Assembly: GCA_902517865.1 (NCBI GenBank)
Contig: CABYDT010000005.1
Coordinates: 1-64,000 of the forward strand
Reading direction: 5' to 3'
Length of the DNA stretch: 64,000 nucleotides
Source: an uncultured Pelagibacteraceae bacterium
GTDB lineage: Bacteria > Pseudomonadota > Alphaproteobacteria > Pelagibacterales > Pelagibacteraceae
The notes under the pieces are model-generated. The model did not search any database. It worked only from the letters and a program-made list of their open reading frames with translations, and was not told the origin of the DNA. The translations under genes were made by a program, and so were the position numbers. Within the stretch, counting starts at the first letter, position 1. The number at the start of each line of letters is the position of its first letter. This document shows positions 39,741 through 45,460 of this stretch, in pieces.

Positions 39741-40554
39741 TTTTAGGAAATCTAGCCTTTATCTCTGGTATCCAAAGCTTGATTTGTTTTATTCTATTGC
39801 TAGGCGAGGGGTGCGTACTTAGGAACTGCGGTGGAATCTTGCCTTTCTGTAATTTTCTCATTCTTGCCCATAACTCTGAAGCTTCTAATAAATCATAACC
39901 AGTAAGAGATGAAAACGCCAGCCCTAGGTAGTCAGCTTCTGTTTCTTGTTTTCTAGTAAAAGGGTTGAATATTCCTACTTTCAAAATATCTACACCAGTT
40001 GTTTGTCCAACAGTATTTCTTGTTCTACTAATAGCTCCTCCAAGTAATGCATCTGCGACAGCCGTTGTAACATTTAATGCTGTAGCAGCACTTGCCCTTT
40101 CTACAGAATGTTTAGCAACTGCATGAGCTATCTCATGACCCATTACATTTGCTAAACCATCAGTGTTTTTTGTTACTTTTAAAATCCCAGAGTAAACAGC
40201 AATTTTTCCACCTGGCATACACCATGCATTTAACATTTTATCATCATCAACTAATATATATTCCCATTGGAAATTTTTAGTTGGATCATTTTTTCCTTGT
40301 TTCTTAAAGTACTCACTAATAGCAATTTCCATTTTCTTGCCAATTGTTTTGATACTGTTTAGTGTTGTTAAATCTCTACTTAATTTAGCTTTTCTCTTAA
40401 ACTGTTTGTAAGCTTTTGCCGCTTGCGCATTTATCATAGATTCAGGGTATATTTTTAGCTGTTTTCTGCCTGTGATAGGGGTTGAAGTACAAGCATTAAG
40501 AGCAAATGCACAGCACCCGCAGCCTAAATATGTTAAAAATTGACGTCTTTTCAT
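39727..40554 (-). CDS. M48-family metalloprotease, Tat-type lipoprotein
   Basis: 275 aa. The N-terminus has a twin-arginine signal (MKRRQFLTYLGCGCCAF) and a lipobox-like LNAC at about residues 18-21, so I infer export by Tat (genes at 53-54 kb) and lipid anchoring. The zinc motif HEIAHAVAKHS is followed by a distal glutamate in KQETEADYLGLAF. A C-terminal SxHPSPSNRIKQIK is typical of YggG/LoiP-like M48 peptidases, which act in outer-membrane protein quality control. Single gene, convergent with the 51-aa ORF. Confidence 0.9.
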   Translation of the reverse strand: MKRRQFLTYLGCGCCAFALNACTSTPITGRKQLKIYPESMINAQAAKAYKQFKRKAKLSRDLTTLNSIKTIGKKMEIAISEYFKKQGKNDPTKNFQWEYILVDDDKMLNAWCMPGGKIAVYSGILKVTKNTDGLANVMGHEIAHAVAKHSVERASAATALNVTTAVADALLGGAISRTRNTVGQTTGVDILKVGIFNPFTRKQETEADYLGLAFSSLTGYDLLEASELWARMRKLQKGKIPPQFLSTHPSPSNRIKQIKLWIPEIKARFPKIKGI

Positions 40555-41270: not shown

Positions 41271-41317
41271 CTTTTCCAGGAGAACAGAGATGGCTAAATC
41301 TAAGAATCCTGGAAAAG
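41271..41317 (+). promoter_or_regulatory. hairpin that covers a ribosome binding site
   Basis: CTTTTCCAGGA (41271-41281) and TCCTGGAAAAG (41307-41317) form a perfect 11-bp inverted repeat around a 25-base loop. The 5' arm contains part of AGGAGA (41278-41283), a strong ribosome binding site for an ATG at 41290. An alternative pairing TTTAGC (41266-41271) with GCTAAA (41293-41298) partly competes with it. There is no T-run, so I do not think it is a plain terminator. Confidence 0.5.
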
Positions 41318-41478: not shown

Positions 41479-41508
41479 TTGACATAATAATTAACTAATA
41501 TATATATT
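41479..41508 (+). promoter_or_regulatory. strong sigma-70-type promoter of the recombinase
   Basis: TTGACA (41479-41484) matches the -35 consensus exactly, and TATATT (41503-41508) is one base from the -10 consensus, at 18-base spacing. Initiation near 41515 would fall in the palindrome at 41507-41531 and leave only about 20 bases before the ATG. Confidence 0.6.
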
Positions 41509-41531
41509 CCGATAATTAATTGTTATCGGAA
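41507..41531. repeat. 9-7-9 palindrome at the recombinase start
   Basis: TTCCGATAA (41507-41515), spacer TTAATTG, and TTATCGGAA (41523-41531): two perfect 9-bp inverted arms and a 7-bp spacer. It ends three bases before the recombinase ATG. It may be an operator for self-repression, a hairpin in the leader, or a core crossover site, since tyrosine recombinases use such spaced inverted arms. Confidence 0.6.
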
Positions 41532-41534
41532 ATT

Positions 41535-42449
41535 ATGAGTAATTTAACAACTGAAATTAAAAAATTAGAAATTGAAACGCTAGACAATTTAAAATTGTCA
41601 AAAGCTAAAAATACCATCCGAGCATACAAATCTGACTTTAAGGACTTTGTTCTTTTTTGCTCTAAGCATGACATAAAAAGTATGCCAACAGAACCAAAGG
41701 CAGTATCTCTATATCTCACGCACTTATCAAAACAATCAAAATTTAGCACACTAAAAAGACGTTTAGCATCTATTAAAGTCATGCATAGGTATAAAGGTTA
41801 TTATTTAGATACAAATCATCCTGCAATCGTCGATAATTTACTTGGCATTAAAAGACAAATAGGAGTTTATCAAAAGGCAAAAAAACCACTAATGTTTGAT
41901 AATTTAAAAGATATAATTAGAGTTATTAATAATTCATCATTAAGTGAATACAAAAAATTAAGAGATAAATCGATAATTTTAATAGGGTTTTCGGGTGGAT
42001 TTAGAAGATCAGAGCTAGTTTCTATTACTAGAGATGATGTTGAATTTGTTAAAGAGGGAGTAAAAATATTTGTAAAAAAATCTAAATCAGATCAGTCTGG
42101 TGAGGGAATGACAAAGGCAATTCCCTACTTTAAAAAATTTGAATATTGTCCTGTAGATCATCTAAAAAAATGGTTGCAAGAAAATAAAAATGACTTGATT
42201 TTTCCTATATCAGATAAAAATGTTGCTCTAATTATTAAAAAACATGCATCAAACGCAGGCTTAGATGATAAAAAATATGCAGGACATAGTTTGCGATCAG
42301 GCTTTGCAACTAGTACAGCTGAGTTAGGAGCTAGTGAAAGAAATATAATGGCAATGACCGGTCATAAATCTGTAGATATGGTACGTAGGTATATTAAAGA
42401 AGCAGATTTGTTTAAAAATAACGCTTTAAATAAAATATCAAATAAATAA
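41535..42449 (+). CDS. tyrosine recombinase/integrase
   Basis: Site-specific recombinase (304 aa from ATG 41535). The N-terminal SAM-like core-binding domain spans about residues 1-110 and the catalytic domain the rest. The full catalytic set is visible: Arg in GGFRRSELVSI, Lys in KKSKSDQSGEG, HSLRSGF, the His in TGHKSVDMV, and the Tyr nucleophile in RRYIKEA. I prefer ATG 41535 to a TTG at 41520, because the TTG lies in the palindrome. It resembles phage-type or element-borne integrases more than XerC/XerD, but I cannot exclude a Xer-like role. No partner phage or plasmid genes are near; two glycosyltransferase genes follow on the other strand. Confidence 0.9.
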   Translation: MSNLTTEIKKLEIETLDNLKLSKAKNTIRAYKSDFKDFVLFCSKHDIKSMPTEPKAVSLYLTHLSKQSKFSTLKRRLASIKVMHRYKGYYLDTNHPAIVDNLLGIKRQIGVYQKAKKPLMFDNLKDIIRVINNSSLSEYKKLRDKSIILIGFSGGFRRSELVSITRDDVEFVKEGVKIFVKKSKSDQSGEGMTKAIPYFKKFEYCPVDHLKKWLQENKNDLIFPISDKNVALIIKKHASNAGLDDKKYAGHSLRSGFATSTAELGASERNIMAMTGHKSVDMVRRYIKEADLFKNNALNKISNK

Positions 42450-42482: not shown

Positions 42483-43373
42483 TTACTTTCGCAATATTAT
42501 TAATATCAAAAATTTTAGCCGGCAAATTATTTTACCAATTATATAAGATACGTTTATTTTTGGATTCTTCAATGGCCCATTATATGGTGTAGTTTTTATT
42601 GTATTATAGGAAAATAAACCACCTCTTAAATAATGTTTAGTAAAAAAAACTGGTGTAATGCCCCATTTTTTTAAAAATGTATTTGTTCCTTTATTCACTT
42701 TAAGCTCAGGTTTTTTTCTTAATGATATAGATCCAAAGTGATAAACCTTAAATTTACTTAAACCTTTAAAAATTCTTACCCCTGCATTCCAAAGTTTCAT
42801 ATTCAAATCCGGATCTGAACCTATACCTGGATCAAACTCTTGACTAAAACCATTAATTTGTTTCCACACTGCCCTATGTATCAAATGTGGAGCCCAATGC
42901 GAACCTTGATAATCATAATAAGTTAGTTTTTTGTAGTTTTCTAATAATTTATTCTCATTAAAATTTTTATAAGTAGATCCACAATCAAATGCAATATGAC
43001 CTGAATTTTGCTCAATCATAGTGGATGAAAAATAGTACAAATTATGATTTAAATTATTAACCTCATTTTCTAATGCAAGATCCCATCCTGGACAGTAATA
43101 CATGTCGTCATGCGAGTACAAAATAAAATCTGTTGTCGACTTTTTTGATGCTATATTAGTCGAAGTACACAATCCTAAATTTTTTCTTGAGAATGTATAA
43201 ACTATATTATTTTTTTTTAGATAGACTAGAGTATCATCTAATCCCTCATTTACATGAACAATAATTTCGTGCTGGTAATTTGAGTTTTTTTTTATGCTTT
43301 CAATGGTTAACTTGAGATAATGAAAATTGTTAAATGTTGGAATAATAATTGAACAAATCACTATTTCATCCAA
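42483..43373 (-). CDS. family 2 glycosyltransferase
   Basis: 296 aa. GT-A start CSIIIPTFNNFHYLKLTIES with KNLGLCTSTNIASKKS, then ILYSHDDMYYCPGW, where DD is the metal site. A later IGSDPDLNMKLWNAG matches the acceptor/base region. A hydrophobic C-terminal stretch (about residues 277-293) may bind the membrane. It overlaps the upstream gene by 13 bases, so the two are probably an operon for a surface glycan. Donor and acceptor are not readable. Confidence 0.85.
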   Translation of the reverse strand: MDEIVICSIIIPTFNNFHYLKLTIESIKKNSNYQHEIIVHVNEGLDDTLVYLKKNNIVYTFSRKNLGLCTSTNIASKKSTTDFILYSHDDMYYCPGWDLALENEVNNLNHNLYYFSSTMIEQNSGHIAFDCGSTYKNFNENKLLENYKKLTYYDYQGSHWAPHLIHRAVWKQINGFSQEFDPGIGSDPDLNMKLWNAGVRIFKGLSKFKVYHFGSISLRKKPELKVNKGTNTFLKKWGITPVFFTKHYLRGGLFSYNTIKTTPYNGPLKNPKINVSYIIGKIICRLKFLILIILRK

Positions 43374-45460
43374 TCACGCTTATCATACGATAAACCCAAG
43401 GATTTACCTATCATAAAATTAGTAACTAATTTATTATTAAATAGCTTAAAATATTTAACTCTTCCATTTTTGCCTATTTTAGAAAGTTCATTTTCATTAT
43501 TTTTATAATATTTAATTTTGTCTATCAAATCGGTTTCATTACCGTATGTTATAAGCTCGTTTTTATTGAAGAAGTCCTGAAAATAATACTTTTTATCAAT
43601 TATAGTTGCTACTCCATTAGCCATAGTAGATGTGATTCTATCACTAGAGTAATACTTAATTGGTTGTCCTCTACTAATATTTATAGCTAATCTACAAAAT
43701 GACAATTTTTCAAAAAATTCATCACCCCATACGGGTTGATTATTGTTCATTCCATAAATTTTAAATGACAAATCTGCACAGCTATTAACTATTTTTTTAA
43801 TAAATTTTTCTCTGGGATCTGAATGATTTTTTTTAAGAGTGCCTCTATGCTGACCATGACTTATAGCTATAAATATATCAAACGATTTTTTGTTATTAGA
43901 AAAATTATTAACGTCAATAGATGGATCAGCTGGGTTAGGAATAAAAAAACTATTTTTTTTGTTTAAAAATGATATTTGATCAGGCGATGTAGTAATAAAA
44001 TTTGTATCAACAATATCGCTTTTAGATAATATTCTATTTTTATTTTTAATAAAGTCAGGTCCAGTTTTTATTAAAGGATCAAGAAACCATTGTGAGATTT
44101 TAATTCCTGAAAAATTTTTTTTTATTTTATATAAAGGATCTTGCATTAGATTGTCAGCATGTCCAAGCATTATTATATCAGGTTTAAAATTATTAACCGA
44201 AGATAGTACTATTTTTGATAAATTTTTTTTTCCCTCTAAGTCATAAATATTTTTTGATGTACTCAGAATATCTCTATCGCTTATTGAAAGCACATTATAG
44301 TTGTTTAATAAAAAACCATTATTAATTTTTTTTGATGTAGAATAATATAATCTTCCATTATGTCTGATATGTGTATCAGCAATATGCAATACTTTTATAG
44401 GCCGATTTAAATTAATATAAATTTTATTATTTATAAGATTATTCCTGATATTATCTAGTTCTATACTTATTTTATTGATATCATGCACATGATTTTTAAA
44501 CGCTTTTTTTTGCAAATCTATTCTCAATTTTTTATTTTTAATAATATTATTAATTGCATTAAATAGAGAAAGCTCATCTAACTTATCTAGTGTTATTTTA
44601 TATTTTAATGTCTCCGGTAACCCACCTTTGTCAGAAATTATCGTAGCACAACCTGCTGCACCAGATTCTATAGCTACACGACCTAATGGCTCTTCCCATC
44701 GCGAAGGTATTACGCTAATAGCAGCTTTTCGAATTCTATTGATTGTATCAGCGTACTTAAGCCATCCTAAATTTTTAAATCTAGCATGAGAAAAAACAAT
44801 CTTCTCTCTAGGCTCATCTCCCACAACCTCCACTGACCAATTTTTGTGAAGCTTTAATATACGCATGGCAGCTTTGCCAAAAATATCATATCCCTTCGAA
44901 GTATTTAGTTTGCCTGCAAATATTATTGTATTTTTTTTTAACGGAAAATTATTTTCTTTTTTAACTCCTGCATATACAACTTGAGTTTTATCTGAATTTT
45001 TAAAATTAATATTTTTAAAAAATTGATCTTTTAAGTATGAGCTTACAAAGAGTATTTTGTCTATACTTTCTAAGAGTAATTCTCTATCTTTTTCTGTTTT
45101 TGAACCTCTAAGATTAATCGGATCATTATGAAAATAAAGAATTATTTTTTTTTGTGTTTCGTTTTTTAATAAATTTGCAATTTGCGGTCTGTTATGAATT
45201 TCTATTATGTCAGGGTTAAACTTTTTAATTTCTTTAACTAATAGTTCAGCATACTCCACATTTGAGCTTCTTAATTTGATTTTTCCAATTTCAATATTTT
45301 TATAATTTTTATCTACAATATCTTTTTTTTCTGTACTGCCATAAATTTTGTACTTAAATTTGCTTTTTCGAGTATACTCTTTTGTAAATAAAGAAACTGC
45401 ACCAGAATATTTTATAGAATAATTTTCTGTCAAAGGAAGTACTACAGCTATTTTTTTCAT
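43361..45460 (-). CDS. fused GT4-like / CgeB-like glycosyltransferase
   Basis: 699 aa with two transferase-like halves. Residues 1-345 are GT-B, GT4-like: FAGKLNTSKGYDIFGKAA (about 181-198), GDEPREKIVFS and the EX7E motif in EEPLGRVAIE (E257 and E265). Residues 354-699 begin with KVLHIADTHIRHNGRLYYST and contain GHADNLMQDP, SQWFLDP and FDIFIAISHGQH, in the style of CgeB/DUF3880-type glycosyltransferases. The fusion of two transferases suggests successive sugar additions. It overlaps tatD by four bases. Confidence 0.75.
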   Translation of the reverse strand: MKKIAVVLPLTENYSIKYSGAVSLFTKEYTRKSKFKYKIYGSTEKKDIVDKNYKNIEIGKIKLRSSNVEYAELLVKEIKKFNPDIIEIHNRPQIANLLKNETQKKIILYFHNDPINLRGSKTEKDRELLLESIDKILFVSSYLKDQFFKNINFKNSDKTQVVYAGVKKENNFPLKKNTIIFAGKLNTSKGYDIFGKAAMRILKLHKNWSVEVVGDEPREKIVFSHARFKNLGWLKYADTINRIRKAAISVIPSRWEEPLGRVAIESGAAGCATIISDKGGLPETLKYKITLDKLDELSLFNAINNIIKNKKLRIDLQKKAFKNHVHDINKISIELDNIRNNLINNKIYINLNRPIKVLHIADTHIRHNGRLYYSTSKKINNGFLLNNYNVLSISDRDILSTSKNIYDLEGKKNLSKIVLSSVNNFKPDIIMLGHADNLMQDPLYKIKKNFSGIKISQWFLDPLIKTGPDFIKNKNRILSKSDIVDTNFITTSPDQISFLNKKNSFFIPNPADPSIDVNNFSNNKKSFDIFIAISHGQHRGTLKKNHSDPREKFIKKIVNSCADLSFKIYGMNNNQPVWGDEFFEKLSFCRLAINISRGQPIKYYSSDRITSTMANGVATIIDKKYYFQDFFNKNELITYGNETDLIDKIKYYKNNENELSKIGKNGRVKYFKLFNNKLVTNFMIGKSLGLSYDKRDWMK

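Follow-up and report, generated by a model that had tools for sequence, protein, structure and literature searches.

A candidate single-recombinase dif/Xer module in Pelagibacteraceae (SAR11), with its site set into the promoter of the adjacent recombinase gene

The window, that is, the whole 64,000-nucleotide stretch of DNA analysed here, contains a gene for a tyrosine recombinase, a promoter ahead of it and, reaching from the promoter almost to the start codon, a 25-bp palindrome with two exact 9-bp arms around a 7-bp centre, TTCCGATAA-TTAATTG-TTATCGGAA (41507–41531). As shown in the Table, the two promoter boxes enclose a spacer of 18 bp, and 3 bases separate the end of the palindrome from the ATG at 41535; this anatomy is exactly that described in the original prediction, which was made from the letters of the window.

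Table. Features of the promoter, the proposed dif site and the recombinase gene in the window
Feature	Position	Strand	Basis and remarks
-35 box TTGACA	41479–41484	+	letters; TTGAC[ATC] upstream of the site in 102/102 distinct loci
-10 box TATATT	41503–41508	+	last 2 bases are the first 2 of the dif-like site
Left arm TTCCGATAA, proposed dif site (type A)	41507–41515	+	letters, conservation, palindrome count
7-bp centre TTAATTG, asymmetric, proposed crossover region	41516–41522	+	ortholog loci
Right arm TTATCGGAA, proposed dif site	41523–41531	+	letters, conservation, palindrome count
Single Xer-type tyrosine recombinase gene, 304 aa	41535–42449	+	profiles, motifs, 8-row alignment

Perfect 9-7-9 palindromes occur four times in the window and zero to four times in each of 20 length-matched first-order Markov sequences; a 9-7-9 palindrome per se is not beyond chance here. 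Although this geometry alone is not rare in the window, a chance palindrome is ruled out by conservation, because 108 of 109 loci have the core GATAA-N7-TTATC just ahead of the start of the orthologous gene. When the 25-bp sequence was searched with up to 3 mismatches, a single match was obtained in the window (mean of 0.06 in shuffled sequences), and the earlier statement that the window has no second copy was thereby confirmed. The genome of the window has one perfect 25-bp site and two other places with 3 mismatches, and three more matches to the 17-bp core at 1 mismatch. Another inverted repeat, whose arms CTTTTCCAGG and CCTGGAAAAG enclose a 27-bp loop, lies past the upstream gene (41271–41317) and has no match in Rfam.

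The encoded protein matches the Phage_integrase profile (E 2.1e-21) and that of the N-terminal SAM-like domain (E 1.2e-6). Its best NCBIfam models are XerA, PRK00283 (the general tyrosine recombinase subfamily), XerD and XerC, all with scores far below the cut-offs: the highest, 81.8 bits for XerA (NF040815), compares with a cut-off of 220, those for XerC and XerD (71.7 and 77.7 bits) with 335 and 330, and that for XerS (PRK05084; 44.7 bits) with 267, and the recombinase remains under every curated Xer cut-off. The nearest solved chains are Cre and XerD, and no XerH chain was matched in the structure library at E ≤ 0.001. The motifs FRRSEL, KSKSDQ, HSLRSG, TGHK and RRYI are invariant in the 8-row alignment; they match the catalytic pattern of tyrosine recombinases (R, K, H-x-x-R, H, Y), in which they presumably supply the R, K, H and R, H and Y, respectively. 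Relatives with 64–89% identity (80 of 545 matching loci) carry, with few exceptions, the labels Pelagibacteraceae, Pelagibacter or Pelagibacterales; one of the 80 loci is labelled Puniceispirillum. The window is accordingly placed in the SAR11 family Pelagibacteraceae. A second tyrosine recombinase gene is found in the genome of the window (L004; G000:C2:120856–121326, a 337-aa open reading frame) and probably belongs to a mobile element.

The 109 loci compared consist of the window, 28 ortholog loci from 36 family relatives and 80 named loci; the latter two sets overlap partly, and 102 distinct loci were used for the promoter box and the column statistics. The only locus in which the core is not seen upstream of the gene is L060, where the contig starts inside the gene, and conservation of the palindrome beside homologous genes, whose failure had been named in advance as a refutation, thus speaks in favour of the site. 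The TTGAC[ATC] box occurs in 2.5% of shuffled sequence versus all of the distinct loci, and the promoter that had been read from the letters is accordingly both real and conserved. Two types of site can be distinguished, type A with TTCCGATAA arms (94 rows) and type B with TTACTAAYGATAA-like arms (14 rows), and across the 102 distinct loci they hold 1.72 (A) and 1.86 (B) bits per column, compared with 0.50–0.74 in the flanks. The 7-bp centre is TTAATGG in 91 of the 108 loci, TTAATTG in 10 and another sequence in 7; it is conserved and asymmetric, as would be expected of a crossover region. The site is almost unchanged between enzymes down to 50% identity while the flanks vary, and the distance from the end of the core to the ATG ranges from 4 to 19 bp. 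Types A and B pair with short and long enzymes, respectively, with no exception in 28 genomes; the switch of site type coincides with an insertion in the enzyme, and since the tree requires one change only, this co-variation was given no weight as independent proof of recognition. In the gene tree, members of the genera g1, g2 and g9 are placed far apart (G002, G032, G022), and at G002:C59, G022:C1 and G032:C1 the recombinase and site type are at odds with the genus labels; either the module is sometimes exchanged whole or some assemblies (G002) are contaminated. The upstream neighbour is a methyltransferase-like gene in 80 of 108 loci, with sugar-modification genes on the downstream side; variable glycosyltransferase-type genes directly follow the recombinase in many loci (42483–45460 in the window, and orthologs), and a variable island seems to border the terminus.

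Copy number was determined in 143 family genomes, of which 142 are at least 90% complete and the remaining one is the window's own (85.6%). The exact 17-base core is present in 124 of them and occurs once in 123 of these 124, compared with 3 genomes for a reversed control pattern; G018 has a second, variant core match. The site is thus a single chromosomal copy, as a single-recombinase dif/Xer system demands. The 19 genomes that lack the core also lack the gene in an alignment search, and all of them are assemblies of 20–70 contigs; the absences are attributed to assembly gaps. The gene of G033 is split across two contig ends, and G221 has a core-like match without the gene. Among the single-contig genomes (G005, G007, G010, G018, G022, G026, G034, G063, G066 and G101), gene and site are present in 10 of 10. 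No genome in which the gene is separated from the site was seen among the 109 loci or in the gene search of the core-less genomes.

The position of the module on the chromosome was also determined. In 7 of 7 closed genomes, the shorter arc between the gene and dnaA spans 0.42–0.49 of the circle. For five of these seven, 400-kb segments were examined: the maximum of the cumulative GC skew within ±200 kb falls +570, +1062, -2096, -2851 and -2094 bp from the site, and the sign of the skew flips across the site at all four window sizes tried; within the 64 kb of the window itself, the turning point is at 39834, 1.7 kb from the site. The site is therefore at the replication terminus, at the GC-skew switch, where the dif of a single-recombinase system is required to lie. 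No KOPS-like polar octamer could be singled out confidently; the k-mers polarised toward the site are mostly purine-rich and follow the strand bias. Neither the terminus nor the resolution of chromosome dimers had figured in the first reading of the locus.

A Phage_integrase match was found in 29 of 37 family genomes, the 8 without a match all being multi-contig. Exactly one match is present in 5 of 7 closed genomes, where a single Xer-type recombinase stands without an XerC/XerD pair; G010 and G018 each have a second match, to a longer protein (open frames of 450 and 355 aa). In the sister family, at least 2 matches are present in 19 of 24 genomes, with best E values of 1e-41 to 1e-48, and the closest equivalog models for one protein each from G037 and G055 are XerD (316 bits, slightly under the cut-off of 330) and XerC (315 bits, slightly under 335), respectively. 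All 12 of the genomes searched have FtsK with a gamma domain (FtsK_gamma). Most simply, the Pelagibacteraceae would have replaced XerCD-dif by a one-enzyme module. Searched with as many as 2 mismatches, the canonical dif pattern of Alphaproteobacteria gives scattered matches in both families and was rejected as a discriminator, since a reversed control also matches. In several genomes of the sister family (f2), the word CATAATTTATTTTATG recurs, in some about 18 kb from a xer gene (similar words lie, for example, at G051:C1:157532, G052:C4:86292 and G058:C10:39228); as a candidate canonical dif of that family, it is a lead only.

The site also occurs in viruses. Exact copies of the type A 25-mer, with two free bases, are present in 32 viral contigs, those of type B in 3 more, and those of the reversed type A in none; these 35 contigs (IMG/VR; L250–L284) include many near copies and are not independent. 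An HTVC010P-like terminase is encoded in 25 of the 35, with the site lying 314–393 bp ahead of the gene start in 23 cases and 1158 bp ahead of it in the other 2, and in all 25 the orientation of the site is opposite to that of the terminase. The terminase of one site-bearing contig is 98.6% identical to that of HTVC106P and the terminase of another is 62% identical to that of HTVC010P, by which an assignment of the contigs to Bacteroidota viruses is ruled out. The viral copies are independent support for the motif being used as DNA in SAR11 cells. In tandem B-A pairs, A is intact and B altered in L259, L261, L265 and L280, and B is intact and A altered in L282–L284. Only 2 of the 35, the GC-rich contigs L256 and L258, encode a related recombinase, 28% identical to the SAR11 enzyme (2776–3963 in L256), with the same arms (TTCCGATAATTGATGGTTATCGGAA) just upstream of the gene; in L256, gyrA lies on one side and filamentous-phage-like genes lie beyond the site, and the contig encodes what we read as a Zot-like protein. 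Among seven terminase regions of named isolates, a type A site that lacks one base is present in HTVC106P and a type B site whose centre is 6 bp in Greip; no good site was found in the other five regions or in the full records of HTVC010P, HTVC034P and HTVC028P, which speaks against the site being general in such phages. Separately, the marine viral contigs L292–L299 encode their own recombinase, 34–36% identical to the SAR11 enzyme, and have no such site.

It is proposed, with a probability of about 0.93, that the palindrome is the dif site of a single-recombinase Xer system of the Pelagibacteraceae (SAR11), served by the recombinase encoded beside it. The original prediction had recognised a spaced inverted repeat with the geometry of a tyrosine recombinase site and assigned it to the enzyme, and its conservation next to the gene supports that assignment; inverted arms around a short centre, adjoining a recombinase gene, are what a site of this kind would be expected to look like. 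Two recombinase molecules would bind the two arms of the promoter-overlapping site at the terminus, and four would pair the two sites of a chromosome dimer, a pairing that is probably driven by FtsK at the septum. Cutting and rejoining would take place inside the 7-bp centre, whose asymmetry would set the direction of exchange, and the dimer would be converted into two monomers. Because both dimer partners are identical, the crossover would regenerate the same promoter-site-gene junction at each event. The bound recombinase may also limit its own transcription; such autorepression, already raised as an option in the first reading, would be a plausible consequence of the overlap between site and -10 box, and we lean toward it.

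The same overlap, together with an end that, at most loci, is only a few bases short of the ATG, would suit a palindrome that is solely an operator, bound by the recombinase or another repressor with no recombination taking place there, and regulation of a SAR11 xerD together with recA, under sulfur limitation and in light, has been described in parts of the literature considered below, if that gene is indeed the same. An operator, however, gives no reason for an asymmetric 7-bp centre to be kept, for a location at the replication terminus or for a site 314–393 bp upstream of terL in viral contigs without the gene, and a site bound by an enzyme with intact catalytic residues is expected to recombine; we regard this reading as very unlikely. 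An RNA hairpin of the 5' leader that governs translation is harder still to credit. The sequence directly ahead of the start codon does fold at -12.6 kcal/mol (z -2.3), but every DNA palindrome folds, type B sites have one arm position unpaired in 14 of 14 cases and the adjoining one in 7 of 14, with no compensating change, and the spacing between core and ATG is variable.

Integrase genes often adjoin att sites, and the gene could on that ground encode the integrase of a mobile element or phage residing in the genome, with the palindrome as its attachment site, the more so as L292–L299 encode relatives. These relatives have no such site, though, the usual neighbours of the gene are methyltransferase-like and sugar-modification genes rather than phage genes, and gene and site are present in every one of the ten closed genomes, at the terminus; given this universal presence, the reading is close to refuted, and little credence is left for it. 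The original prediction had gone further and envisaged a self-switching integrase that recombines with a second site and so uncouples the gene from its promoter. The site does sit between promoter and gene, but a switch of this type would need another recombination site in the same genome. All but one of the core-holding genomes have a single exact core, and in none of the genomes seen does the gene stand apart from its site. Self-switching within the chromosome is refuted by the single copy and retains next to no probability; a phage-borne partner site is possible. On the dif/Xer reading, the site would pair best with the identical copy carried by the sister part of a dimer, and nothing would be switched, because crossing over between identical sites restores the same junction.

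A tentative further idea, which we consider rather doubtful, is that relatives of HTVC010P carry the host dif and use the host Xer to enter, and leave, the chromosome at dif. Phages related to HTVC010P are called lytic, on the ground that they lack an integrase, in passages of one report (PMC6811365), and the occurrence of the host recombination site in some pelagiphage-type viruses is relevant to the question whether phages so classified are able to integrate. An HTVC010P-type terminase is present in 7 of 397 family genomes; in one of these (G146), 180 kb of the same contig separate terminase and site, and none of the seven was shown to be a lysogen at dif. If the idea were true, integration between the xer promoter and the ATG would sever xer from its promoter and put it behind phage DNA, the phage would control expression of the enzyme that releases it, which would be the originally predicted switch with a viral partner, and the tandem sites, in which one type has decayed while the other is intact, would be a record of the host type that the phage uses.

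Several known systems resemble the SAR11 module in part. XerS/difSL of streptococci and lactococci is likewise a single recombinase with its gene directly beside the site, but difSL, as described in parts of a 2017 review by Castillo (PMC5357621), is 31 bp long with an 11-bp centre and imperfect, unequal arms, whereas the SAR11 site has perfect 9-bp arms and 7 bp between them, and the SAR11 enzyme is only distantly related to XerS by its model score. The same parts describe XerH and the archaeal XerA/dif, which also has a single recombinase; XerA is the best model for the SAR11 enzyme, although the score is far under the 220-bit cut-off. XerL/dif was found in Legionellales (Nicholson 2022, PMC9765430), a proteobacterial lineage also listed as lacking dif/Xer in a 2009 survey; compared by description, from passages of that paper, it likewise has a single recombinase, long uninterrupted inverted arms (10 and 12 bp) and a dif mimic borne by a mobile element, but dif and xerL of L. 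pneumophila are more than 400 kb apart, while in SAR11 the distance is 3 bp and the site lies in the promoter. From the same passages, XerH/difH of Campylobacter and Helicobacter may be likened by description, with a single recombinase and a site near the gene. With XerC/XerD-dif of Alphaproteobacteria, the SAR11 module shares the gamma domain of FtsK and the inner arm letters ATAA...TTAT, which are seen in most of the dif sites shown in the published Table 1; it differs in having one enzyme instead of two, a 7-bp instead of a 6-bp centre and symmetric arms, and the enzyme has 24–26% identity to the Xer proteins of the sister family.

In the portion of the 2009 proteobacterial survey that concerns it, Pelagibacter is given as having no dif/Xer, which was read as loss through genome streamlining, and a term search of the main text of Kono 2011 (PMC3025954) found no mention of Pelagibacter. 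It has been reported in parts of the SAR11 papers PMC5069961 and PMC3090418 that sulfur limitation induces SAR11_1019, annotated xerD, along with recA and that xerD and recA are up in light; we infer that this is the gene studied here, because G026 has just one such gene. Among the open-access matches listed, none linked SAR11 or pelagiphages to a dif site of their own. If the proposed reading is right, dif/Xer of SAR11 was replaced rather than lost, by a smaller one-enzyme module whose target lies inside its own promoter, 3 bp from the gene. SAR11 bacteria, which rank among the ocean's most abundant cells, undergo frequent recombination; with this module, they would gain a marked terminus and a likely, testable step of dimer resolution.
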